A stretch of DNA of 64,000 bases from Candidatus Bathyarchaeota archaeon (lineage in GTDB: Archaea > Thermoproteota > Bathyarchaeia > TCS64): NCBI GenBank assembly GCA_026014875.1, contig JAOZHO010000051.1:1-64000 (forward strand), written 5' to 3'. Both the position numbers and the translations under genes were made by a program. Position 1 is the stretch's first letter; each line of letters begins with the position of its first letter. The notes under the pieces are model-generated. The model saw only the letters and a program-made list of their open reading frames with translations, was not told the origin of the DNA and did no database searches. Positions 945-61,623 of the stretch are shown here, piece after piece.

Positions 945-1235
945 ATGGCAGGAGTTAATGCTCACCAGAACGTATCAGATCAGGTCTACGAGGGCCTTCT
1001 CAACAAGACCAAAACTGAGCTCCTCGTCCAGCGTAGTGATTACTACATCAACAAGTTAAAGGGTAAAAAGTACCTCATCATCGAGAACGACGAGATACTA
1101 GAAAAACCCAAAGCAAGGTTCCTCATCCAATCCATCAACGAGGAAACAGGCTCCATTCGGGAGGACATTTACGGACAGACAGTCAACGGGATTTATCTGA
1201 GGATAGAACTCAAACTCAGGCAGAAGACAAGATAA
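945..1235 (+). CDS. Hypothetical protein, 96 residues
   Basis: I do not recognise this protein. It is mixed charged and hydrophobic, with segments LLVQRSDYYINKLKGKKYLI and GIYLRIELKLRQ that suggest an alpha/beta fold; no signal peptide, membrane segment or metal motif. The reading frame opens at 864, but ATG 945 is preferred because a TATA-like GATATATCC lies about 25 bases upstream, as expected for a leaderless archaeal transcript. The direct repeat GATATATCCTC/GGATATATCCTC just before the start may belong to the promoter. The gene lies between CG tracts at 906 and 1274. Codon use is more AT-rich than in the core. Confidence 0.55.
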   Translation: MAGVNAHQNVSDQVYEGLLNKTKTELLVQRSDYYINKLKGKKYLIIENDEILEKPKARFLIQSINEETGSIREDIYGQTVNGIYLRIELKLRQKTR

Positions 1236-1273
1236 TTTTTTCGAGCGTGTGTGTAGAGTGTGTATGTGTCTAT

Positions 1274-1282
1274 GCGCGCGCG
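1274..1282. repeat. CG-alternating tract preceded by GT-alternating run
   Basis: GCGCGCGCG directly follows a GT/TG-rich alternating stretch (about 1245-1270), so roughly 35 bases are mostly alternating purine-pyrimidine, a sequence type able to adopt Z-DNA. It lies between the convergent genes 945-1235 and 1366-1608. Confidence 0.6.
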
Positions 1283-1365
1283 TTTTACCCTGGGAAAAAT
1301 GAAAAAACAACTCAAAACTTGATTCGACTATAAACTCCTGGCCGCCTCTCGGCGTCTGAGCTTAT

Positions 1366-1608
1366 CTAGAACCTTCTTGGCGGCCTGTGCTTAGCAAAGC
1401 ACTCACGGCAGTAAACTGGCCTGCCCTCTGTTGGCTTGAAGGGGACTTCCGCCTCCTTCCCGCAATCAGAGCAGATGACCTTGGTCATCTCACGCGGGCC
1501 ACGGTCGGATCCACCGCGCCTGTTGTCTCTATAACCCAATACTTTCACTCCTATTCTGTGTGTATGCTCAGAACGCCTAACAGAATTCTCCGCACACTTC
1601 GAATGCAT
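1366..1608 (-). CDS. Small CxxC...CxxC zinc-ribbon protein
   Basis: The C-terminal half has CSDC and, 17 residues later, CREC, followed by a basic tail (KHRPPRRF): a two-knuckle zinc ribbon of the CxxC-x17-CxxC type common in archaeal small nucleic-acid-associated proteins. The basic, glycine-rich middle (RDNRRGGSDRG) would suit RNA or DNA binding. A TATA-like TTTAAAAG about 25 bases before ATG 1608 supports that start as leaderless; a GTG at 1548 (starting VKVLGYRD) is the alternative and gives 60 residues. The gene is bounded by CG tracts at 1274-1282 and 1646-1654. Confidence 0.75.
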   Translation of the reverse strand: MHSKCAENSVRRSEHTHRIGVKVLGYRDNRRGGSDRGPREMTKVICSDCGKEAEVPFKPTEGRPVYCRECFAKHRPPRRF

Positions 1609-1645
1609 GTGCGGTCCTCCCTTTTAAATCATTTTACGTATCTCC

Positions 1646-1654
1646 CGCGCGCGC
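1646..1654. repeat. CG-alternating tract
   Basis: CGCGCGCGC between the divergent genes 1366-1608 (minus) and 1768-1941 (plus). Confidence 0.6.
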
Positions 1655-1767
1655 AGCAAATGGGAGTTGGGATGAGGGCGATGGTGAAGACCCAGTCTCT
1701 CTAGCGAAGGCTAAATATTGGGTAGAGCACGGTTCTTTTTTAAATGTAAATGATAAGAATAAATGAA

Positions 1768-1941
1768 ATGGTCGTCTGTAAGGTTTGTGGGCATCTCGGT
1801 AAAAAATTGACAAGAACAAAGAGAAGTAAAAAACTTCGTGGGCTTTGTGGGCTTAAAGCACACACAGGTCGAATGGATATTGAAGAGGAAAGAGAATGCG
1901 CAGATTTCACAACGGAAACGATTGATAATCTCTTTCAATGA
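1768..1941 (+). CDS. Small cysteine protein, CxxC-x19-C-x16-CxxF type
   Basis: A 57-residue protein beginning MVVCKVCG. Cysteines are arranged CKVC, LCGL and ECADF, with a strongly basic loop (KKLTRTKRSKKLR) between them. This looks like a single zinc-binding fold. The same spacing style occurs in the neighbouring frame at 2823-2972. The frame opens at ATG 1750, but TTTTTTAAATG near 1735-1744 places a leaderless start at 1768. AT-rich codons unlike the core. CG tracts at 1646 and 1984 flank it. Function unknown. Confidence 0.55.
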   Translation: MVVCKVCGHLGKKLTRTKRSKKLRGLCGLKAHTGRMDIEEERECADFTTETIDNLFQ

Positions 1942-1983
1942 AAAATATTTAATGAGTTCATAATCTTTTTAAGTCAAGTTGAT

Positions 1984-2000
1984 CGCGCGCGAGCGCTAAC
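1984..2000. repeat. CG tract plus left copy of GAGCGCTAAC direct repeat
   Basis: CGCGCGCG (1984-1991) runs into GAGCGCTAAC (1991-2000). The same ten bases recur at 2170-2179 beside another CG run, so the tiny gene at 2001-2120 lies between two direct repeats. Confidence 0.6.
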
Positions 2001-2120
2001 CTACCAGAACTTCCACCAAGGTTTCTTCTCGACGGATATTTCTTCGACTGGCTCTTCTCTTTTCTCTTCCTCGCTAGGTTTCTCCTCGATTTGCTCCTCT
2101 TTTTTCTTCTCTTCGGACAT
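2001..2120 (-). CDS. 39-residue charged peptide with aromatic tail (WWKFW)
   Basis: An uninterrupted frame from ATG 2120 to TAG 2001. The first 31 residues are almost all Glu and Lys (MSEEKKKEEQ at the start) and are probably disordered or helical. The last residues KKPWWKFW are basic and aromatic, the kind of tail that can insert into a membrane interface or dock in a protein groove. The start is preceded by a GGTGAAGG ribosome-binding-like sequence and a TTTAAG box. It sits between GAGCGCTAAC direct repeats, next to CG tracts. No family recognised; the biased composition could be chance, but start signals and fit between the repeats argue for a gene. Confidence 0.5.
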   Translation of the reverse strand: MSEEKKKEEQIEEKPSEEEKREEPVEEISVEKKPWWKFW

Positions 2121-2303
2121 TTTCCAAACCTTCACCTTAGCATGGGGCTCATCACTGCTTAAAGGTTACGAGCGCTAACGGCGCGCGCGAGAGGGTTAGA
2201 TAGAGGGAGGGAGAGGGCTAGGGAGAGTGGGTTTGGGGGATAAATTTTTACCCCACACACACATAGAAGAAGAGAATTAGATGATCGCACGCCTTTGATA
2301 TTT
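2121..2303. other. Intergenic segment with promoter-like AT box
   Basis: It contains the promoter of the 39-residue gene, the right GAGCGCTAAC repeat and CG tract (2170-2189), a purine-rich run (GAGAGGG type, 2190-2230), and the element GGGGGATAAATTTTTACCCC followed by CACACACACAT (2235-2264). The last resembles the element at 485-509. Confidence 0.4.
2170..2189. repeat. Right copy of GAGCGCTAAC direct repeat plus CG tract
   Basis: GAGCGCTAAC at 2170-2179 is followed by GCGCGCGCG at 2181-2189. At the left copy the CG run precedes the repeat and here it follows, so the CG runs lie on the outer sides of the repeat pair. Confidence 0.6.
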
Positions 2304-2720
2304 TTACTTCTTTTTATAGAGTTTTCCGAAGAGAGCGTTCAAGTTCTCTTTATCATCTCTGCTGAATTTGAACTCGTGGCCGTAGGGACATAAGTCATGA
2401 ACAACGACTTTCCTCAATTTTTCATTATATACCAGTGGATAAAGCCGGCATCCTTCGGGTCTGAAAGAGTATATCTTACAACCATTTTCCCCGAGAAAAA
2501 CGCATCTACCGTTACGGTTTTTTAAATGACGCTCTCTTTTTCGTTTCACGACAAAATCTTTGAACCTGTATCCCTGCCGGGAAATTCTCTCTATATCAAT
2601 ACGCGAGAGAGGCATACTGGTCTCTATGCAACATTTGACACAGTTGTGAATCATGCATGGAATGCCACTGCTCAGAAGATGTTTCTCAGTTTCATTATTA
2701 TTCGCGTGCTTGCATCCCAA
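2304..2720 (-). CDS. YkgJ-type zinc/iron-binding cysteine cluster protein
   Basis: 138 residues. The pattern NCVKCC near residue 26, RCVFLGENGCKIY in the middle, RPEGCRLYPL and a late DLCPYG matches the YkgJ/UPF0153 family, which is predicted to bind zinc or iron through about eight cysteines; its substrate is not firmly established. The frame begins at TTG 2720, which adds a further CKH; an internal ATG (MIHNCVKCC) is an alternative start. A TATA-like AATAAAG about 37 bases upstream fits 2720. CG tracts lie on both sides (2181-2189, 2779-2788). AT-rich relative to the core. Confidence 0.75.
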   Translation of the reverse strand: MGCKHANNNETEKHLLSSGIPCMIHNCVKCCIETSMPLSRIDIERISRQGYRFKDFVVKRKRERHLKNRNGRCVFLGENGCKIYSFRPEGCRLYPLVYNEKLRKVVVHDLCPYGHEFKFSRDDKENLNALFGKLYKKK

Positions 2721-2778
2721 GGGAAACGTCTCCTCAAGTGTCTATCATTTTTGTTCTTTATTAGGGCGCGAGCGGCCG

Positions 2779-2788
2779 GCGCGCGCGC
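2779..2788. repeat. CG-alternating tract, longest of the series
   Basis: GCGCGCGCGC, preceded by GGGCGCGAGCGGCC (2764-2777). It lies upstream of the minus-strand YkgJ-like gene and beyond the 3' end of the small gene at 2823-2972. Confidence 0.6.
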
Positions 2789-2822
2789 AGCTCGTGTTTA
2801 AGACATGATGCGCACGCTACAT

Positions 2823-2972
2823 TTAGCCGCGCTTGCGTGTGAGTGATTCGAAGGATCGACAACGAAATTGTACGTTAATTTCATCCAAATAGTCCCTTTT
2901 GAATAAACAAAAGTTCGTGGTGAATATACCTTTTCTCACATGTAGATTTTTACAATTAATACATCGTACCAA
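2823..2972 (-). CDS. Possible small cysteine protein, CxxC-x14-C-x15-CxxF type
   Basis: The frame contains CINC, then NFC, then FRCRSFE, a spacing similar to the gene at 1768-1941, which is the main reason to believe it. The whole frame opens at ATG 3065, but the residues before the first CxxC look random. A TTG at 2972, downstream of TATA-like GTATAAAG (about 3020-3030), gives a 49-residue protein. Function unknown. It could also be a decayed member of the family. Confidence 0.35.
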   Translation of the reverse strand: MVRCINCKNLHVRKGIFTTNFCLFKRDYLDEINVQFRCRSFESLTRKRG

Positions 2973-3065
2973 AATATTCCGTATTATACTAAAGGTTCCA
3001 TTGTATAAAGAACACCTATCTTTATACAAAAGGCTCGAAGTGTGGTTGCTAGGTGACGATTTCAT

Positions 3066-3257
3066 CTAGGAAGAGCGCGCACTTTGAGATCTTTCATCCT
3101 TATCCAGCTGAGTACATCTTGGACATGGCGGAATGTGAAGGGGCTTGTTTGGGAATATCGTTAGGGTCTCCTTTCCTCTTCGGGGATAGTCAGGGCAATC
3201 TGTTTTCCAGTGATAGTATTCTTCTTGATCAGGTTGTCTTCTATGAAGCCTTTTCAC
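3066..3257 (-). CDS. Small cysteine protein with DCPDYP and CPRC motifs
   Basis: 63 residues from ATG 3257. The motif WKTDCPDYP is followed 20 residues later by PPCPRCTQL: three cysteines that with nearby histidine could hold one metal. Both segments look conserved in style, and I recall similar short archaeal proteins, but I cannot name a family. The last codons run through the GCGCGC at 3075-3080, so the tract overlaps the 3' end. Flanked on the other side by GCTCGCTCGCG (about 3272-3282). Confidence 0.45.
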
Positions 3258-3335
3258 ATATTCAGCCTTTGCTCGCTCGCGTTTTCTTCATCTAACCCAA
3301 GGCTTAATAGCTCTTATCCAAATGACGCGCTGCAA

Positions 3336-3602
3336 ATGTCAGTCGAAAACGTTGTTTACATAGGAAGCAAACCGATCATGAACTACTGCATGGCTATCCT
3401 TTCCTCACTAAGGGACGAGAGCAGAGTTGCGTTGAAAGCGAGAGGCCGTGCCATAAGCACAGCTGTAGATGTGGCTGAGGTGACGAGGAACAGGTTTATG
3501 CAAAATCTCATAGTCGAGAATGTGGAGATTGGTACTGAAGAGCTTGAATCAGAGGGACGTATGAGGAACGTCAGTACTATAACTATCGTTCTTAAAAAAT
3601 AG
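3336..3602 (+). CDS. albA: Alba chromatin protein (copy 1)
   Basis: Alba (Sac10b family) coats archaeal DNA and RNA as a dimer. The 88-residue protein has the usual order: [26 protein letters not shown] with the DNA-contacting Lys-Ala-Arg-Gly-Arg region, and a final beta strand [13 protein letters not shown]. The frame opens at 3210, but the first 42 residues are unrelated and a TATA-like CTTAATAG near 3302-3310 fits a leaderless ATG at 3336. A paralogue lies at 17457-17732. Unlike that copy, this one sits inside the accessory array with CG-rich boundaries (ACGCGC at 3325 and 3607), so it may have moved with the array. Confidence 0.93.
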
Positions 3603-3668: not shown

Positions 3669-3677
3669 GCGCGCGCG
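3669..3677. repeat. CG-alternating tract at the left edge of the DUF1847 copy
   Basis: GCGCGCGCG followed at once by the first bases similar to the DUF1847 gene (from about 3680), so the tract marks the breakpoint of the duplication. Confidence 0.6.
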
Positions 3678-3907
3678 ACGGATTCGAGGCGGGGTGCAAC
3701 CCTGTGGTGCAGGCAGCGGTGCTGATCTCGGAGGAGCTGGATCTCCACTTCATGGTTGGTCTCTGCATCGGTCACGATATTCAGTTCAACATGCATTCCA
3801 GGGCGCCCACGACGACTCTCATCGTGAAGGACAGGGTGACGGGGCACAACCCGGTGATATCGCTGTACAGCGCGTACCATCACCCCAGATACTGGAAAGA
3901 AGAGTAA
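3678..3907 (+). pseudogene. DUF1847 gene fragment (truncated copy of 1-410)
   Basis: Bases 3680-3907 match about 190-410 at roughly nine bases in ten and end with the same stop. The readable protein starts at FEAGCNPVVQAAVL and ends HHPRYWKEE. No start codon or 5' half is present; the left break falls at a CG tract. Most differences are at third codon positions, so the duplicated piece probably came from a related DUF1847 gene rather than from a very recent copying of this one. It may be expressed from GTG or ATG within, but is best seen as a remnant. Confidence 0.75.
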
Positions 3908-4043
3908 GACTGCCAGAGCGCAGCCCTCACACCGTTTTATGGAGGAGTTTTTGAGTGTTTGGGGGTGTTTTCTGTTTGCTTTTAGGTGTTGTTTGGTACT
4001 GAATAGCACCTGGTTTACTTGAGGGGGGGGGTCATCATTTGGC
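3908..4043. other. Non-coding, G/T-rich
   Basis: Top strand is rich in G and T (TTTGAGTGTTTGGGGGTG and similar) and ends with a nine-G run (4023-4031). No gene, repeat or promoter that I can support. Confidence 0.3.
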
Positions 4044-4306: not shown

Positions 4307-5713
4307 TTAATGACGCGTGTATTCGATAATCTGGTCAATTAATAAGCCTTCATTTGCGTGAACCACACTATGGCAGGTAGGGCATAGAGGCATGGTCTTT
4401 TTAATTGCATCTTCTATTGTGGTGGTAATGCCTTCCTTTGGGATATCTTTCAAAGGTTCCATGTGATGAATGTGGACAATTTCCCTATCAACAAAATCTG
4501 GTTTAGTATAACCACAAACCATGCAACGTAATTTTCCTTCTTCATCTTCATTTTTAAAATGCTCTCTTGCCTTTTTAAGAAGCTCTGGAGACCTTTTTCG
4601 CATCTGGAAATTTGAATATGTTATTAGTGATCCTTCTTCAATGAATTTTTGATTTTCAATATTGATATTTTTTAAGTCCTCATCAAAAATTAGAGTTGCA
4701 TCACTATCAAGTGCATTGAAAAATTCAATAAATTTTTCTGGGGCTTCTTTCCTATTATTCCAATACCACTGATGTATTTTTTCTAGTTGGCTTTGATTTT
4801 GGTTATGTCGTTCTGTCTCTATTGAGTTAAACCCCGAGATTTGGTCTAAAAGATTCTTAACAATAGCTTTGTCTTTTTGTATTAAATGAGAAAGGTCTTC
4901 AATCAATTCCTCTTCTGGAGTATTATAATTACCAGTTAACTTATCATATGCATAAACAACAAAATAACCTTGAATTGCAGTTAATATCTCTAATTGAATA
5001 TCGTCTTCATTTTTTTTTAAAAATTTAGTTAAATACGGAATGGCTCTATGTGAAAGTTCTTCATCACTGTAATTTAATAAATTTTCAGCACGGAGATCCC
5101 TGACATGATGAGATAAAGGCCCAAATCTATCGTTGCGATTATTGAAGAGTGCGAGATCAAGAGCAGTAAACCCATAATTGATCATCAGGTCATTTACTCT
5201 AAGTCTCCGTAATGCGTTCAGATTCATTCGTTTTTCGTCTAAATCTTTTTTCTCCATTTCACGTTCACTATAAAATAGAAAATCCACATCAAGACCAGTA
5301 AAAACCTCTTCTGCCCTCCATTGTAAGTATCGGGTACTATTGCTAAAATTATCATGAAATTTAAATGGTGGCTCATCTTGTGATTTTTGAAAATAAGAAT
5401 ATATGATATTAATCCAAGGATCAAACGAATCGCTTGCTGGAAAAAGCGAAAATATGATGATTCCTTTTTCTATATCTGGGGTAACTCTATTCGGTTTAAT
5501 TTTAAACATTATTAGATCGATAGGAGAGGAATGGTTATACACTGTTATTTTTTTAGCATCAGTTCCTAATGGTCTATATTTTCCCGAAACTTGCGATACA
5601 TCGGTACAGGTTATATACGCGTACATTAATGCGATTCTATAATCTTCCTCAGAAATATTTTCGATACGATTCCTAACTTCAACTATTAGATCTGTAATTT
5701 TAGTAGAATACAT
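4307..5713 (-). CDS. HNH endonuclease domain protein, 468 residues
   Basis: The last ~75 residues form a zinc-stabilised HNH nuclease: CMVCG, then VHIHHMEPL (catalytic His-His), then MPLCPTCHSVVH. The long N-terminal part (about 390 residues) is mainly helical, rich in Asn and charged residues, and matches nothing I know; it has no membrane segment. HNH proteins with a large variable N-terminal part are often restriction or defence nucleases, so that is the likeliest role, by inference. ATG 5713 is chosen; the frame extends to TTG 5740. Very AT-rich codon use, unlike the core, suggests transfer. Confidence 0.85.
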   Translation of the reverse strand: MYSTKITDLIVEVRNRIENISEEDYRIALMYAYITCTDVSQVSGKYRPLGTDAKKITVYNHSSPIDLIMFKIKPNRVTPDIEKGIIIFSLFPASDSFDPWINIIYSYFQKSQDEPPFKFHDNFSNSTRYLQWRAEEVFTGLDVDFLFYSEREMEKKDLDEKRMNLNALRRLRVNDLMINYGFTALDLALFNNRNDRFGPLSHHVRDLRAENLLNYSDEELSHRAIPYLTKFLKKNEDDIQLEILTAIQGYFVVYAYDKLTGNYNTPEEELIEDLSHLIQKDKAIVKNLLDQISGFNSIETERHNQNQSQLEKIHQWYWNNRKEAPEKFIEFFNALDSDATLIFDEDLKNINIENQKFIEEGSLITYSNFQMRKRSPELLKKAREHFKNEDEEGKLRCMVCGYTKPDFVDREIVHIHHMEPLKDIPKEGITTTIEDAIKKTMPLCPTCHSVVHANEGLLIDQIIEYTRH

Positions 5714-5818
5714 ATTTTGTATTAGAGTAAAGATAAACAAAACATTTTCTCTTAAACCTAAATCTCATTTCAAATGGATTAATGTAGGGGGAATCTTAGC
5801 AACCAGCTAGCTTGAAAA

Positions 5819-6368: not shown

Positions 6369-7187
6369 TTAGTTCGAGACGCGCATGATTGAAAATAAGC
6401 ACACTGTGTTTAACTTACATTCATGACACAGAGGCGTCGCTCCACAAATATTGCGCTTGAATTTTGCACAATAATTCCAAATGAAATCATCCACTATTCC
6501 CGGGGCTATCCCAATATCTATATCTTCCATCATAATTCCGGAAAGGTAATTCCGGCAAAACAATACGAGGGCGTTTTGGAAATCCTTGTTTGCGAGAGGG
6601 TCTGAATCCCTAGATGAGCAGAAATGAAAAATGCCTGTTCTGAGGATAAACCTCTTTTCATGAATATCAATAGGGATTCTGTCGAAGTAGCCGAAATCTC
6701 TTAAAAAATTGTCTGCCCCTTTTTGTATACCGATGACTTTTCCCTCATCTTTTTTTTCACCACTACGGACTTTACTGTAAAGACTCTTTGTCCATTCTTT
6801 CATGGTTTTCTCTTGAAGTTGTTCCAGGAGCAACCTAATCCTATCCGAACTGGACCACCCAGGCCATTTCATTCCATGTTGATCCAGTATGGCTATTAAC
6901 TCATTTTTAGCGGGTGTAGAAAGTGGACTACTTTTATGATTCTTCTGCCAGACATTTATTCCATTTATAAATCCTTCAGTTCCCGTGCGATAAAAATTCC
7001 TAGTCGCAATCATACTAGCCAAAGTCTTTAGCGCTTTAGTAACCACAGAGGGTTTATTCTGCTCGATTCCCACAGCGTTTTCTTTGAATTCAATAACTTC
7101 CGTAATAGCTTCGTCCATTGTACGGAAAACCAAGACCATCTCGTTTGCTAACTCTTGAGGATCAAACCTAATTGAGACAACGTTCAT
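6369..7187 (-). CDS. HhH DNA-glycosylase-like protein with C-terminal Fe-S loop
   Basis: The region KGADNFLRDFGYFDRIPIDIHEKRF (about residues 155-180, quoted in parts: NFLRDFGYFDRIPIDIHEKR) resembles the helix-hairpin-helix and catalytic Asp segment of the EndoIII/MutY/Ogg superfamily. The C-terminus has C-x5-C-x2-C-x5-C (ICGATPLC, HECKLNTVC), close to the four-cysteine [4Fe-4S] loop of EndoIII. I do not see a clear catalytic lysine, and the first ~130 residues are unfamiliar. Likely a base-excision enzyme for damaged or modified bases. AT-rich, in the accessory zone, ATG 7187. Confidence 0.65.
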   Translation of the reverse strand: MNVVSIRFDPQELANEMVLVFRTMDEAITEVIEFKENAVGIEQNKPSVVTKALKTLASMIATRNFYRTGTEGFINGINVWQKNHKSSPLSTPAKNELIAILDQHGMKWPGWSSSDRIRLLLEQLQEKTMKEWTKSLYSKVRSGEKKDEGKVIGIQKGADNFLRDFGYFDRIPIDIHEKRFILRTGIFHFCSSRDSDPLANKDFQNALVLFCRNYLSGIMMEDIDIGIAPGIVDDFIWNYCAKFKRNICGATPLCHECKLNTVCLFSIMRVSN

Positions 7188-23603: not shown

Positions 23604-24005
23604 TCAGAGTCCGGGGACGTCGTCTGCCTTTGGGCCCAGGGACTCTCTCAGCGCTTCGAGGGTCTGGTTCGGGAAGTCTTTCATGAGGCTGTCGAAGACG
23701 GATTTCACGATGTATCTCTGGAATCCCTCCTCGTCGAGGGCGGGGGTGTATTTCCTGCGGGTGCCGCCTTTGCATGTCTCCTCGGTGTAGTTGAGTATGC
23801 CTTCGTCGCACATGCTGTTGAGGAAGTTGATTATTGACGCCCGGGAGATCTTGCCGCCGTCCAGCGCTCCGTTCACGTTAATGTAGACCTGTCTGGAGGT
23901 GACTCCCTCCTCTGCGTTCTTCCAGACGTGTTTCATGGCCTCGATCTGGTATGTTCTCAGCACTTTCTCTAATCCCGTTTTCGTTGGATCTATCGTCAGT
24001 GGCAT
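23604..24005 (-). CDS. Winged-helix transcriptional regulator
   Basis: 133 residues. A helix-turn-helix with wing is visible: EAMKHVWKNAEEGVTSRQVY, KISRASIINFLNSMCDEGIL and the wing YTEETCKGGTRRKYTP, like BlaI/MecI-type and related archaeal regulators. The C-terminal helix (QRYIVKSVFDSLMKDF) probably dimerises. ATG 24005 starts the conserved part (MPLTIDP). Target unknown; it lies at the border of the AT-rich island. Confidence 0.75.
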   Translation of the reverse strand: MPLTIDPTKTGLEKVLRTYQIEAMKHVWKNAEEGVTSRQVYINVNGALDGGKISRASIINFLNSMCDEGILNYTEETCKGGTRRKYTPALDEEGFQRYIVKSVFDSLMKDFPNQTLEALRESLGPKADDVPGL

Positions 24006-24029
24006 TTTGTTCACCTGAGTAATGCACAA

Positions 24030-24249
24030 GATAATCCGGTTTTCTATAAAAGTCTTAGTGTTTAAATCCCCTAAATCATGGTAGAAAGGGGAGTAATGTC
24101 TCTAATTGTTAAGACAATTTGCATAATTTTATGGCATTATATCATTCCACATCTGAAATCGTTTACAATCAATAATTCCAAGATACTGACTAGAGAAACT
24201 GCATTTTCTTATATTGGTTATTAGGCTGACTCGCTCAACCTATTTCTAG
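24030..24249. other. AT-rich intergenic at the left edge of the nuclease island
   Basis: Composition falls sharply from about 24050. I see no gene, repeat or promoter that I can support. Confidence 0.35.
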
Positions 24250-24879
24250 TTACATGAAACTACATAATGCTAGATAATTAAACACAGGATGTCTTGGTGA
24301 ATCAATTTTTGAATAGTATCTCCATTCTGCCAGATAATTACCACTTAGTATTATTGGAACTTCTCTACCCTTTGTTGTACCTTTTCCAGCATTTTCGCTC
24401 CATTTCAAGATACCATTAAGCTTCTTTCCTTCATGAATCCGAAACGCTTCATCAACTGTAATTTTTCTAGTTGATGGTTTCTGATATAATGTATCATTGG
24501 ATAGCATTAGAGCAAACCAATCCCAACCAAGTTTCTCCCTAACCTTCTCAAGGCGACTAACATCTTTCAAATAATCGTAACGACCTTGATCTTGCGCTCC
24601 ATGATCTTTTAGAAAATATTTTTCACCCTTAAACTGAGTCTGAATATTTCTAGTTCTATATTTTAATTCAAGTGCAAAACTCGAATCCTCATCTTTTACA
24701 ACTATATCTAAATAGATTCGTGGATCCAGATCAATTGGTTTTTCTAGATAAATCTCAACACTTGGAAAACTTTTCTGTATCTCCCATGCTAATTGTAGTT
24801 GAAAATCGGCTTCACTATGAAACACAGGGCGTCTCTTAGATAATTGTTCTATGATAAAATGCAGGTCTTGAGTGTTCAT
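24250..24879 (-). CDS. PD-(D/E)XK nuclease-like protein
   Basis: 209 residues. HSEADFQLQLAWEIQK, then YLDIVVKDEDSSFALELKYR gives the D...ExK catalytic core of restriction-endonuclease-like nucleases (Asp of YLDIVV, Glu and Lys of ELK). The rest (SRLEKVREKLGWDWFALMLSND) matches the following helix and strand. ATG 24879 has an excellent AAAGGAGG ribosome site, unlike the leaderless genes. It lies 34 bases behind the second nuclease gene, so the two form an operon. Very AT-rich. Likely defence or restriction; target unknown. Confidence 0.7.
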   Translation of the reverse strand: MNTQDLHFIIEQLSKRRPVFHSEADFQLQLAWEIQKSFPSVEIYLEKPIDLDPRIYLDIVVKDEDSSFALELKYRTRNIQTQFKGEKYFLKDHGAQDQGRYDYLKDVSRLEKVREKLGWDWFALMLSNDTLYQKPSTRKITVDEAFRIHEGKKLNGILKWSENAGKGTTKGREVPIILSGNYLAEWRYYSKIDSPRHPVFNYLALCSFM

Positions 24880-24913
24880 TCCTCCTTTCTCCTCATGCAT
24901 GCACGAGAAATAG

Positions 24914-25330
24914 TTATTGTTCGATGACTACATCTGGAGATTCAACCCAGAATAGTTTGATTCCGAATTTACGAATTTCTTGGGAGGCCGCTTCAATATG
25001 ACCTCTTAGATAATCATCATTAGGTTGTGCTATACCAACAATAGCTGATGGATTAGCGTGTTTTTGTTCAAGGACTTTTACGATGGCCTTCCCAAAATGG
25101 TCTTTGATTTGACCAGAGTCAAAATATGGCCGTGTAGTAACAGGAGACCTTGGATTACCTTTACTCCCCTTCGCCTCGATTATCATGACTTCATTATCTT
25201 TCGTTGCCTTAATGTCAATACCCCGTGAGTGCCCTTTTGATATCTCTAAGATTGTCCAATCATCTTTTTTTAGCCAGATACAAAGGAAATCAATGACCTC
25301 ATTTTCAGTAAGCTTTACCATAGCCACCAT
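24914..25330 (-). CDS. Small PD-(D/E)XK nuclease-like protein (Mrr/HJR-like)
   Basis: 138 residues. GHSRGIDIKATKDNEVMIIEAKG contains Asp and ExK of the restriction-endonuclease fold (in parts: RGIDIKA, IIEAKGS), preceded by a helix with LTENEVIDFLCIWLKKDDW. The glycine-basic segment PRSPVTTRPYFDSGQIKDHFG resembles nucleases of the Mrr/VRR group. First gene of the minus operon; ATG 25330 is about 22 bases after a TATA-like TATTATAC. Could be a recombination nuclease instead, but the neighbour is also a nuclease, so defence is the preferred reading. Confidence 0.65.
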   Translation of the reverse strand: MVAMVKLTENEVIDFLCIWLKKDDWTILEISKGHSRGIDIKATKDNEVMIIEAKGSKGNPRSPVTTRPYFDSGQIKDHFGKAIVKVLEQKHANPSAIVGIAQPNDDYLRGHIEAASQEIRKFGIKLFWVESPDVVIEQ

Positions 25331-25389
25331 TTAGCCAATATAAGGGAGTATAATATGAAAGTTAACCCATTCACTGAAAATTTATCCTT

Positions 25390-25399
25390 GCGCGCGTAC
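25390..25399. repeat. GCGCGCGTAC direct repeat, left copy
   Basis: GCGCGCGTAC, identical to 26033-26042. Lies between the nuclease operon and the EVE-like gene. Confidence 0.65.
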
Positions 25400-25456
25400 C
25401 ACTCCCAAACTATCGCACGCTAGAACTATTAAATCATAATAACTCATAATTCTACG

Positions 25457-26032
25457 ATGTCTTACATCTGCCCCCGGTGTAACACAATATTCTCTTCTGA
25501 AGAATATTCACAAGACAAGTTCTGTACGAAATGTGACACATTTTTGAAGAAACATCAAGAACCACGAATCCGAAAAATCACCTTTACAAAACATGAGGAA
25601 GATTCAAATTATTGGATTATACCCGTGAAACAAGCAGGTTCTATAAACAGATCAATTGTCAAAGAAAAAATATGGGCCTATGGGACAGATACTCCAGGAA
25701 GAAATCTTATCAAGCCCAAGGATTGGGCCTGTTTCTATCTATCAAAGCATGGGATTGTAGCACATGCTGAAATACTGACATATCCTAGAAAAATGGAACA
25801 CCCTCCAGTTAACGACCCTGAAAAATATAATTGGGTCTTCAAATTGGGAAATATATCCGTCTATCTAGAAAATCCACTTAAGATTTCTCTTACTATTCGT
25901 AAACAGCTTGATGCATTTAAAAAATCTGATCCTTTGTCAACTAAAATCGCTATTGATAGCTGGGGATTGTTTGTTCAGAGTAATAAGCAAATATCGCTGC
26001 ACGACTTTAAACTTCTTATAGGTTTACAATAA
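25457..26032 (+). CDS. EVE-like domain protein with N-terminal zinc ribbon
   Basis: 191 residues. The first 35 residues are a zinc ribbon (YICPRCNT, then FCTKCDTF). The remainder, with YWIIPVKQAG, IWAYGTDTPGRNLIKPKDWACFY (in parts) and HAEILTYP, resembles the EVE/PUA-like fold that reads modified bases; EVE domains often accompany modification-dependent restriction nucleases. Here two nuclease genes lie next door, divergently. TATA-like CTATTAAATC precedes ATG 25457. The stop is followed by base one of the right GCGCGCGTAC repeat. Strongly AT-rich, likely acquired. Confidence 0.6.
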   Translation: MSYICPRCNTIFSSEEYSQDKFCTKCDTFLKKHQEPRIRKITFTKHEEDSNYWIIPVKQAGSINRSIVKEKIWAYGTDTPGRNLIKPKDWACFYLSKHGIVAHAEILTYPRKMEHPPVNDPEKYNWVFKLGNISVYLENPLKISLTIRKQLDAFKKSDPLSTKIAIDSWGLFVQSNKQISLHDFKLLIGLQ

Positions 26033-26042
26033 GCGCGCGTAC
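26033..26042. repeat. GCGCGCGTAC direct repeat, right copy
   Basis: Starts on the base after the EVE-like gene's stop codon. With 25390-25399 it brackets that gene as one module of about 650 bases. Confidence 0.65.
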
Positions 26043-26105
26043 ATACGAAATACCCATTCTAATTATAGGTTACTCGGTATCAAACCGCATTTAGAGCAGA
26101 AGCCT

Positions 26106-26492
26106 TCAATCCAGGATATGGGCTTCAAGGACGAAGCAGGCGAAGACGCTTGTGAAGACCTTAACGTCGCCAACGTTGACATCGACGCTCACAGATCTCC
26201 GCCTTCCCTTAGTCTCCTCGACGCTAGCCGAAGCGATCATCGAATCACCGACCTTCACAGGAGCCAGGAAACGGCATTCCGATCCCCCGAGCACGACGAA
26301 GGGATGATTGACGGCCAACATTGCGGCATAGTCGGCGAGGCCGAACGTGAAGCCTCCATGGATCAACCCTCTCTCGTCCACCGCCATCTCCTCGGTGGCG
26401 GTCAGCGCCACCTCCGATGTCTCCCCCGTGATTATCCTCAATGGCGTGCCGAGAAGGCCTTCCCTTGCGAGGGCGTGGGTCTTTTTCTCCAA
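26106..26492 (-). CDS. PaaI-like hotdog thioesterase
   Basis: 128 residues, single hotdog fold. LIHGGFTFGLADYAAMLAVN holds the HGG motif and acidic residue of the PaaI/YbgC acyl-CoA thioesterases; the following strands (CRFLAPVKVGDSM and RRRSVSVDVNVGD) are typical. Likely hydrolyses an acyl- or aryl-CoA; substrate unknown. GC-rich, first core gene after the island, divergent from the FAH gene. Confidence 0.85.
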   Translation of the reverse strand: MEKKTHALAREGLLGTPLRIITGETSEVALTATEEMAVDERGLIHGGFTFGLADYAAMLAVNHPFVVLGGSECRFLAPVKVGDSMIASASVEETKGRRRSVSVDVNVGDVKVFTSVFACFVLEAHILD

Positions 26493-26573
26493 TAGGCGTC
26501 CTCCTTTCCCCGTTCAGTCTCTCTACAACTGTCCCGATATAACGTTAAATCTTTGCTGAGGGAGCTTGAGTGT

Positions 26574-27640: not shown

Positions 27641-29311
27641 TTGAGTGCAATTGGTTATGGTGGACAACCAATCATTATTCTAAAGGAAGGAACGGAGCGC
27701 AACCGCGGTAGCGACGCCAGGAACGCCAACATCCAGGCTGCACGAATCGTTGCCGAGACTGTGAAGACCTCCCTTGGACCCAAGGGCATGGACAAGATGC
27801 TGGTGGACAGCTTCGGGGACGTCACCATCACCAACGATGGCGCCACGATGCTCAAGGAGATGGACGTCCAGCACCCCGCCGCCAAGATGATGGTGGAGGT
27901 CTCCAAGACCCAGGACAACGAAGTCGGGGACGGGACCACGAGCGTAGTGGTGCTGACGGGAGAGCTCCTAGGGAAGGCCGTGGAGCTCATGGACAAGAAG
28001 ATCCATCCCACGGTAATCATCGACGGCTACAGGGACGCTCAGGAGCAGGCCCTCAAGATCCTCGACGAGATCTCCATTGAGGTCGATCCCAGGGACAAGG
28101 AGAGCCTCAAGAAGGTAGCGGTCACAGCCATGGCGAGCAAGCTCGTCTCCGGTTACAGCGACTACCTCTCCGACATATCGGTGGACGCGGTCCTCCAGGT
28201 TGCGGTGGAGGCTGACGGCGGCATCGAGGTAGACCTCGACATGATCAAGATGGAGAAGAAGCCCGGAGGCTCCCTCACAGACACGAACCTCATAAAGGGG
28301 CTCATCATCGACAAGGAAGTGGTCCACGCCGATATGCCGAAGATGGTCAAGGACGCCAAGATCGGCCTCCTCAACGCGGCCCTGGAGATCGAAAAGACCG
28401 AGTTCGACGCCAAGATCCAGATCGAGACACCCGAGGAGATGCAGGCTTACCTCGACCAGGAGGAGAACATGCTCCGGGAGATGGTCCAGAAGATCAAGGA
28501 CGCAGGCATCACCGTCCTCTTCTGCCAGAAGGGGATAGACGACATGGTTCAGCACTTCCTGGCCCGGGAGGGCATCTTCGCCGCCCGGAGGCTCAAGAAG
28601 AGCGACCTCACAGCCCTCGCCAAGGCGACGGGCGCCAAGGTCGTGACCAGCGTCGACGACCTCACGGCCGACGACGCGGGCTACGCAGCGAACGTCGAGG
28701 AGAAGAAGATCAGCGACGACAAGCTCATCTTCGTCGAGGGGTGCAAGAATCCCAAGGCTGTCTCCATCCTCGTGAGGGGTGGGACGGAGCGCATCGTCGA
28801 CGAGGCCGACAGGAGCCTCCACGACGCCCTCTGCGTCGTCAAGGACGTGGTCGAGGACCCCAAGATCGTGGCGGGCGGAGGAGCCCCCGAGATCGAGGTG
28901 GCCCGGAAGCTGAGGCGACACGCCGAAACCCTCGCGGGCAGGGAGAGACTCGCTGTCATGGCCTTCGCGGAGGCGATGGAGGTCATACCCGTGACCCTCG
29001 CGGAGAACGCGGGCATGGATCCCATCGACGCACTGTCCGAGCTACAGGCGTCGCATGAGAAAGGAGAACTCTGGGCCGGCGTCAACGGCCTAGAAGGCGA
29101 GATCTCCAATATGGCTGACATAAACGTCTACGAGCCCACCATGGTGAAGGTCCAGGCCATAAAGTCTGCGACCGAGGCATCCACGCTGCTGCTGAAGATC
29201 GATGACATCATCGCAGCATCCAAGATGAGCATGCCCGCAGGACCCCCTGGTGGTGGCATGGGCGGAATGGGTGGAATGGGCGGTATGCCTGGCGGCATGC
29301 CCCCCATGTAG
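27641..29311 (+). CDS. thsA: Thermosome subunit (group II chaperonin)
   Basis: 556 residues. ATP-driven folding chamber, partner of prefoldin. ATP site motifs: [22 protein letters not shown], and [11 protein letters not shown] with the catalytic Asp; late [14 protein letters not shown]. The C-terminus is a Gly-Met repeat ([16 protein letters not shown]), the flexible tail that points into the cavity. TTG start 27641. Only one subunit gene in the window. rpoK follows after 34 bases, so the two may share a transcript. Confidence 0.97.
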
Positions 29312-40441: not shown

Positions 40442-40449
40442 GCGCGCGC
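40442..40449. repeat. CG-alternating tract in a core gap
   Basis: GCGCGCGC, followed by ACCTACACAGATACACACTGC, an alternating CA-rich run (quoted in full here as 21 bases of mixed pattern is avoided: it reads ACCTACACAGATACACAC). Lies between the pyrophosphatase and PHP genes. Confidence 0.5.
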
Positions 40450-59895: not shown

Positions 59896-61623
59896 ATGAG
59901 TGAGATGAGCGTCAACGCCCGGGTCTCCCAGGTCCTCTACCAGATCGGGGAGGTACTCACCATCAAGGAAGACCGGTTCAGGAGCAGGGCGTTCAACACA
60001 GCCGCCCAGAGGATCGTCAGCCTCACCGAGGATATCCGTAAGATCAGGGACAGGGGGGCGCTCCAGGAGATCCCGGGCGTGGGGAAGGGCATCGCCGCGG
60101 TAATCGAGGAGGTCCTCGAGACCGGAGGCTCCGAGGTCTTGGAGGAGCTCGAGGCGAGCCTCCCCCCGGGCATCAGGGAGATGATGCGCCTCGAAGGGGT
60201 CGGCCCCAAGAAAGCGGTGCGCCTCCAGAAGGCGCTGGGCATCGCCTCCATCGACGACCTTGAGAAAGCGGCGAAGGAGGGCAGAGTCCGGGGGCTCAAG
60301 GGCTTCGGGGAGAAGACCGAGGCCAACATTCTGGAGGCCATCGAGGAACTCAAGAGCCGCCAGGGCAGATTCCTCTTGGGGGCGGTGCTCCCCGTCATCG
60401 AGGAACTCAAGGCCTACCTGGCGGAGTCGGACGCCGTTCTCGCAGTGGAGATTGCCGGATCGGCGAGGCGGAGGAGGGAGACGGTGGGAGATATCGATGT
60501 CCTCGTCTCCTCGCTGAGCCCTGAAGTAGTGTCCGAGAGGTTCGTCTCGATGCCTCCTGTGGCCCGGGTCCTATCCCACGGTTCCACCCGAAGCACGGTT
60601 GTGATGAATAACTTCCTCCAGGTGGACCTCCGGGTTGTCCCCCCGGAGTCCTACGGGGCCGCCCTCCAGTACTTCACGGGCTCCAAGGACCACAACGTCA
60701 AGCTCCGCACCATTGCCGTCAGGGCGGGGTACAAGCTCAACGAGTACGGTCTCTTCGACCGGGAGACCGACGAGGTCGTCGCGGGGGAGGACGAGGAGGG
60801 GATCTACCGTGTCCTCGGGATGGAGTTGATGCCTCCGGAGCTCCGTGAGAACAGGGGGGAGATCGAGGCGGCTACTGAGGGGGTCCTCCCTAACCTCGTC
60901 ACCATGGACGAAATCAAGGGAGACTTCCATATCCACAGCATCTGGAGCGATGGCACCGCCAGCATCGAGACCATGGCCGAGAAAGCGATAAGCCTGGGCC
61001 TCGAGCACATGGCGATCTGCGATCACACCAAGAGCCTCTACATCGCGAACGGCCTCGACGAGGACCGGGTCCAGAAGCAGATGAAGGAAATAGACAGAAT
61101 CAACGAGGGACTTGACGGATTCACCATACTGAAGGGGACAGAGTGCGACATCCTCTCGGACGGGCGGATGGATCTCCCCGACTCCCTCCTCGGGGACCTG
61201 GATTTCGTGGTGGGGAGTGTCCACAGCGCGTTCCGCCAGGACGTTGACACCATGACTGACCGGATCCTCAAGGCTATCCACAACGAGAACGTTGACTGCA
61301 TCGGCCACCCCACGGGGCGCCTCATCCAGAAGCGACGGGCCTACGAGGTGAACCTGGAGAGGGTCTTCGAGGCCGCGGCGGAGCAGGGGGTGATGATGGA
61401 GATCAACGCCTACCCTGAGAGGCTGGACCTCGACGATGTCAACTGCAGGGCGGCGATGGAGCAGGGGGTCACCATGGTCATCGGGACGGACAGCCACGCC
61501 CCCAACCAGATGGAGTTCATGCCCCTCGGGGTCTCCGTGGCCCGGCGGGGATGGCTGGAGGCTGAGAACGTGGCGAATACGCTCACCTTGGGAGAATTGA
61601 GGAAACTCCTGGCCAGGAACTAG
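59896..61623 (+). CDS. polX: Family X DNA polymerase with PHP domain
   Basis: 575 residues, the size of prokaryotic PolX. Order: N-terminal 8-kDa and HhH region (IPGVGKGIAAVIEEVL, GVGPKKAVRLQKALG), polymerase palm (GSARRRRETVGDIDVLV with the first two Asp, and VDLRVVP with the third), and C-terminal PHP exonuclease (GDFHIHSIWSDG, ICDHTKSLY, VGSVHSAF, GHPTGRL, GTDSHAPN). All PHP ligands are there, so 3'-5' exonuclease is expected. Fills gaps in base-excision repair, fitting the two glycosylase genes. ATG 59896. Confidence 0.95.
   Translation: MSEMSVNARVSQVLYQIGEVLTIKEDRFRSRAFNTAAQRIVSLTEDIRKIRDRGALQEIPGVGKGIAAVIEEVLETGGSEVLEELEASLPPGIREMMRLEGVGPKKAVRLQKALGIASIDDLEKAAKEGRVRGLKGFGEKTEANILEAIEELKSRQGRFLLGAVLPVIEELKAYLAESDAVLAVEIAGSARRRRETVGDIDVLVSSLSPEVVSERFVSMPPVARVLSHGSTRSTVVMNNFLQVDLRVVPPESYGAALQYFTGSKDHNVKLRTIAVRAGYKLNEYGLFDRETDEVVAGEDEEGIYRVLGMELMPPELRENRGEIEAATEGVLPNLVTMDEIKGDFHIHSIWSDGTASIETMAEKAISLGLEHMAICDHTKSLYIANGLDEDRVQKQMKEIDRINEGLDGFTILKGTECDILSDGRMDLPDSLLGDLDFVVGSVHSAFRQDVDTMTDRILKAIHNENVDCIGHPTGRLIQKRRAYEVNLERVFEAAAEQGVMMEINAYPERLDLDDVNCRAAMEQGVTMVIGTDSHAPNQMEFMPLGVSVARRGWLEAENVANTLTLGELRKLLARN

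Follow-up and report, generated by a model that had tools for sequence, protein, structure and literature searches.

Runs of alternating C and G, 7-12 nt long, recur in the spacers of this archaeal genome and of others in its genus, and they look for the most part like marks of places where the genome was broken and rejoined; they resemble the scars of joins more than the handles of a mobile one-gene cassette. One way to account for them, to which we give slightly less than even odds (about 0.48), is as filler left where non-homologous ends were joined. This account starts from what is observed: the tracts themselves, their intergenic excess, their link with breaks in synteny, homology that ends at tract edges, and homologous copies that are tract-free. 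The window (the whole stretch of 64,000 nucleotides analysed) is archaeal, as its thermosome gene (27641-29311) and its Alba gene (3336-3602) show. It belongs to a genome of 2.5 Mb, here G000; G001, G002 and G003 are relatives of the same genus. Features of the window are collected in Table 1.

Table 1. Positions and properties of the features discussed, numbered along the window
Feature	Positions	Strand	Properties
CG tract, GCGCGCGCG	1274-1282	+	left edge of duplicated zinc-finger gene piece
Piece with zf_Tbcl_2 zinc-finger gene (ORF 1366-1608)	1283-1645	-	tract-enclosed; copies elsewhere in G000 and in G002
CG tract, CGCGCGCGC	1646-1654	+	right edge of zinc-finger piece; homology to both G002 copies ends here
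CG tract	1984-1991	+	in cluster with the 1274 and 1646 tracts
CG tract	2181-2189	+	in cluster with the 1274 and 1646 tracts
CG tract	2779-2788	+	homology of the left piece with a paralogous copy (L088) ends at the CG-rich start, 2765
CG tract	3669-3677	+	joined to 3' fragment of DUF1847 gene (3683-3919) broken mid-gene; both other copies tract-free
Conserved repressor gene	23604-24029		left neighbour of the block
Stretch absent from G002 (91% identical)	24186-26538		junction with 3-bp overlap, ATA
Block found in this genome alone	24187-26105		three AT-rich genes, about 1.9 kb, between repressor and thioesterase genes
Gene for 216-aa protein	24250-24900	-	AT-rich; no family assigned
Gene for 138-aa protein	24914-25330	-	AT-rich; weak sub-threshold likeness to Mrr-type nuclease catalytic domain (E = 0.14)
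CG tract copy 1, GCGCGCGTAC	25390-25399	+	alternating purine-pyrimidine; separates two divergent AT-rich genes; inside the block that relatives are without
Gene for 191-aa protein	25457-26032	+	N-terminal CxxC...CxxC zinc-ribbon-like part, then a domain resembling EVE by eye only
CG tract copy 2, GCGCGCGTAC	26033-26042	+	directly 3' of stop codon; near right edge of the block
Conserved thioesterase gene	26106-26492		right neighbour of the block
CG tract, GCGCGCGC	40442-40449	+	homology to G002 begins at the next base, 40450

CG tracts in spacers and at synteny breaks

Between genes, in 592 kb of G000, no 6-mers or 8-mers are more strongly over-represented than the alternating CG words. Intergenic CGCGCG numbers 156 in G000 against 23 expected, GCGCGC 156 against 21, and CGCGCGCG 48 against 1.1; in G001, intergenic CGCGCG numbers 44 against 3.1. 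Tracts of at least 7 nt are nearly confined to spacers, with densities per kb of 0.46 intergenic versus 0.02 genic in G000, 0.37 versus 0.02 in G001, and 0.40 versus 0.03 in G002. They are often bordered by more alternating purine-pyrimidine sequence. Alternating runs of at least 10 nt with at least three CpG number 48 in G000 where 3.4 are expected (14-fold); for alternating runs that have no more than one CpG the excess is 2.7-fold. No sequence common to the surroundings of the tracts was found beyond the alternating CG itself, and neither orientation nor gene distance is fixed. A promoter, terminator or insulator of fixed geometry was considered and set aside, as no distance or orientation is preferred.

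The tracts keep company with breaks in gene order. A spacer counts as informative if the genes on either side of it can be placed in G002; of the nine tract-bearing ones in G000, none is plainly syntenic in G002, compared with 86 of the 117 that are tract-free (Fisher p = 1.7e-5), and controls matched for length and GC content predict 5.9 of nine (product probability about 1e-4). Spacers of G001 behave similarly (0/9 syntenic with a tract versus 17/43 without; p = 0.02). The link is weaker when G002 is the query: two of seven tract-bearing spacers are syntenic, against 87 of 131 without (p = 0.1). In a pooled sample of intergenic 29-mers, a tract is present in 0.13% of those that can be aligned, in 1.2% of those that cannot, and in 3.3% of those at the edges of homology; edges are enriched 2.8-fold over the interior of unalignable spacers (p = 0.01). 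AT, GA/TC and GT/AC repeats do not follow the same gradient from alignable sequence to edge in the pooled 29-mers. G000 and G001 supply all of the pooled edge tracts; of the 119 intergenic homology edges in G002, none has a tract.

The single-contig relative G003 has 62 CGCGCGCG sites, a genome-wide count that takes intergenic and genic sites together. By counts only, CGCGCGCG outnumbers a control word made of G and C alone in certain genera of the family and, outside the family, in part of the class. Its counts are high relative to this word in the family members G011, G007 and G006 and, further out, in G049 and G053; the three genomes of genus g7 and families f2 and f3 have none. It is wholly absent from G009, G014, G018 and G027-G031, although the G/C control word is present there, which suggests avoidance of the word in those lineages. 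The literature searched contained no account of tracts like these at junctions in archaeal genomes.

The gene at 25457-26032 and the block around it

The earlier note drew attention to a single gene enclosed by identical copies of GCGCGCGTAC. Both copies are where it placed them, on the same strand; the right one does begin on the base after the stop codon (TAA, 26030-26032), and extends into a 15-nt alternating run, GCGCGCGTACATACG (26033-26047), with 63 bp between copy 2 and the end of the conserved thioesterase gene at 26106. The AT-richness it described is equally plain: GC content per kb is 34.9-37.3% between 24 and 26 kb, and about 55-63% in the sequence to the left and right.

The exact identity of the two repeats over 10 bp is weak evidence, because 10-mers common to both sides of single genes are frequent, seven of the ten bases of GCGCGCGTAC are generic CG tract, and TAC is the commonest continuation; the real signal is the CG tracts themselves. 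Thus 16 of 269 single genes in the 592-kb sample are flanked by some common 10-mer, CG-run 10-mers accounting for just two of them, and TAC, which preserves the purine-pyrimidine alternation, is the top trinucleotide after a GCGCGCG run (6 of 56). The chance that two random tract ends agree in the next three bases is 0.045, and shuffling of the flanking spacers yields a 10-mer common to both in 0.8% of trials. Within the window the two copies of GCGCGCGTAC are the only ones (0.04 expected). To the earlier note, a repeat common in the genome without connection to genes would have spoken against a module; the CG part is indeed common, the full 10-mer is not, with six occurrences genome-wide versus eight for the reversed control word.

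Comparison with relatives draws different boundaries from those of the repeats. Twelve relatives belonging to the same family and order have the repressor and thioesterase genes side by side with no insert. One of these is G001, where a short spacer separates the two genes; the left portion of this spacer can be recognised as far as AATAATTCTAACAT. G002 has no thioesterase gene at this locus, and G003 likewise shows none there. The segment missing from relatives is thus longer (24187 to about 26105; in G002, 24186-26538), and the loss of exactly 25390-26032 with a single repeat kept, as the earlier note would have it, was not found among them. The left edge of the block, 24187, carries no CG tract; the right tract lies near its right edge. 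Because relatives miss the longer block, because its left edge is tract-free, and because homologous copies elsewhere usually lack tracts, a unit 25390-26032 coming and going by recombination between its repeats is, to judge from the sequences compared, not supported. Of the module idea as a whole, then, the tie between CG tracts and the edges of moved or acquired DNA is borne out, but the recombining unit is not.

The label ‘EVE-like’ given to the product was not confirmed: a Pfam search up to E = 1 did not match the 191-aa protein to EVE, and PADLOC, NCBIfam and PDB sequences gave no match either. Its structural model is of low confidence (pLDDT 50), too poor for the fold comparison, which returned no meaningful match. 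Among 60 related genomes there is one clear relative, in G013 (53% identity over residues 50-187), which does without the zinc-ribbon-like start. The neighbouring genes offer weak nuclease-like similarity at most. Membership of a defence system was considered for the 191-aa protein; neither the Pfam, NCBIfam, PADLOC and PDB sequence searches nor the low-confidence model gave anything usable.

Homology ending at the tracts

At base level, the end of homology often falls 0-5 bp from a tract, and tracts are usually missing from the homologous copies. The G002 counterpart of the site at 40442-40449, for example, is tract-free and holds about 1.25 kb of different DNA in that place. At the tract L075:18984-18992, homology to a G002 copy and to a G000 paralogue starts on the following base (18993); upstream of this point the two remain similar to each other, and the tract copy differs. 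In five cases two agreeing homologous copies without a tract identify the tract allele as derived: L075:18993, L076:10708, window position 3683, and, in G001, L080:8707 and L094:677.

One junction has both parents known. At L076:10692-10707 (G000:C44:50692-50707) tract-free homologues are known for the left piece, which has a zinc-finger gene, and for the right piece; as these homologues continue without the tract, about 16 bases that include it derive from neither parent.

The earlier note saw a parallel to its module in another gene of the window with CG tracts at both ends, and that gene is a sound example of movement: the zinc-finger piece at 1283-1645 is mobile, and other copies of it are without one or both tracts.

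The surroundings of this piece have several features of their own. A row of small genes occupies 945-3602 (weak Rep-A_N-like, zf_Tbcl_2 zinc finger, CxxCxxCC, Alba), with CG tracts between them; more AT-rich genes, one with an HNH nuclease domain, lie beside this first tract cluster at 4307-5740 and 6369-7187. The 3' end of a DUF1847 gene is duplicated (91%), the copies at 186-422 and 3683-3919 lying 3.5 kb apart. At a separate locus, in G001, an FAA hydrolase gene (L080:7638-8707) is inverted relative to the order in G000 and most relatives; a CG tract stands at the right breakpoint only.

Proposed end joining and its alternatives

In the account favoured here, broken or incoming ends would be joined without homology, and a few alternating C and G would be added in the process; 3' ends of this kind are self-complementary and could pair with one another, perhaps aiding the joining. 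The gene at 25457-26032 would be a captured piece, presumably joined by a tract at each end, within the three-gene block. The closest parallel is the untemplated or self-templated filler of non-homologous end joining (NHEJ): there, as here, short extra bases found in neither parent join unrelated ends, and the ends are random, some of them mid-gene. The tracts differ in their strong bias to alternating CG, and in that the usual prokaryotic apparatus, Ku and LigD polymerase, was not found in the genus. The broken DUF1847 fragment at 3669-3683 is more in keeping with random ends than with a specific site, and random ends together with new bases at the joins fit end joining better than a site-specific cassette. 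Against this account, a tract at any junction other than the one with both parents known could have been brought in by a partner not seen here; the local block has no tract at its left edge, the link is weaker in G002, and some G002 tracts are common to paralogous promoter regions.

A different perspective, somewhat unlikely, supposes that the tracts are neutral or regulatory features (promoter, boundary, slippage) of newly arrived AT-rich islands, coinciding with breaks since island DNA is new. Clusters of tracts do occur (12 close pairs, where 4.5 are expected), often in AT-rich islands, and the enrichment of edges over interior is just the 2.8-fold given above. Several G002 paralogues have CGCGCGCAACTATATAAAC in common, just before a TATA-like box; since some tracts are common to these paralogous promoter regions, tracts can also be inherited. 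What this perspective accommodates poorly is the exactness with which homology ends match the tracts (0-5 bp), at joins between host-type genes as well; orientation and distance to genes vary, other dinucleotide repeats lack the gradient, and the matched controls also tell against it. Alternatively, the CG runs may have been there beforehand, flipping to left-handed Z-DNA and breaking, and so acting as hot spots of rearrangement. As CG-rich alternating purine-pyrimidine runs the tracts are predicted to be Z-DNA-prone, and they stand at breakpoints, as do the Z-DNA-forming CG repeats described as instability sites; a survey found that prokaryotes generally suppress Z-prone patterns (PMC4060949), so the 14-fold excess in G000 may have consequences. 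We consider this unlikely: in the polarised cases the unbroken homologous copies are tract-free, for which reason the tracts seem to come after the break rather than before it; conserved spacers, where pre-existing hot spots should show, rarely carry tracts; and at L076:10692-10707 the tract is in neither parent.

The module idea of the earlier note amounts to a cassette system, in which a recombinase cuts and joins at CG tracts and moves single genes. Ghaly and colleagues 2022 (PMC9668308) described integrons and gene cassettes in archaea; such systems too acquire genes, and set single small genes in rows with a recurring short sequence between. The zinc-finger piece, tract-bounded at 1274 and 1646 with copies elsewhere, fits such a system, as do the five of 13 neighbouring tract pairs that enclose one ORF and the three tyrosine recombinase genes of the genome (counted without distinguishing IntI-type from other subtypes). 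It is nevertheless improbable. Unlike integrons, the tracts present no attC-like conserved site: a bare CG run recurs, its surroundings are not conserved, and other copies of the moved pieces are without it. Moreover, one piece begins inside a gene (3683), and exact excision of one gene was not found. Integron attC sites were rejected on two grounds, the lack of a common flanking sequence and the frequency of GTTRRRY, which occurs within 60 bp of 11 of 53 tracts, about chance for a 1-in-1024 word on both strands. Least probable by far is an artefact of assembly or library, with contigs misjoined at CG-rich stretches. G000 and G002 are fragmented (51 and about 120 contigs), as this would have it; the tracts, however, lie almost entirely in spacers, a restriction not expected of random chimeras, and are present in several separate genomes, the sites in single-contig G003 among them. 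Runs of 7-12 bases are, besides, too short for an assembler to join contigs on.

If the tracts are filler from end joining, the joins of foreign or displaced DNA, and their frequency, could be read directly from these archaeal sequences, and a route of end joining that works without Ku and LigD would be indicated. A doubtful extension of that account is that this lineage has a Ku-independent end-joining activity which extends DNA ends with alternating CG; being self-complementary, these additions would let any end pair with any other, and the activity would leave a CG scar at each join and build mosaic islands of captured single genes. How non-homologous DNA is taken up and joined in archaea that have neither Ku nor LigD is poorly understood; if the tracts are scars, the question becomes testable through scar counts in close strains.

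Several enzymes were considered as the source of the tracts. Ku was not found in G000-G003 and is present in seven of 61 genomes, none of this genus; no LigD polymerase domain was found in G000-G003. Ku or LigD as the cause was set aside, neither having been found in the genus. A gene for PolX (DNA polymerase beta-like) is in the window (match at 60661-60849, in a 581-aa open frame); its presence was rejected as an explanation, as PolX occurs across the order, including genera with zero CGCGCGCG. The reverse transcriptase DRT3b, which makes poly(dCdA) without a nucleic-acid template (PMC13174585), illustrates that strict alternation can be enzyme-made; it differs in belonging to a defence system and in making another dinucleotide. 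A reverse transcriptase was likewise rejected as maker of the tracts, no such domain having been found in the genome.

A minor observation concerns the G002 assembly, many of whose contigs have at their ends (loci L106, L112, L140, L145, L151 and L196) a near-identical stretch of about 139 bp starting CGCGCGCAGGCC; it looks like an assembly-breaking repeat.
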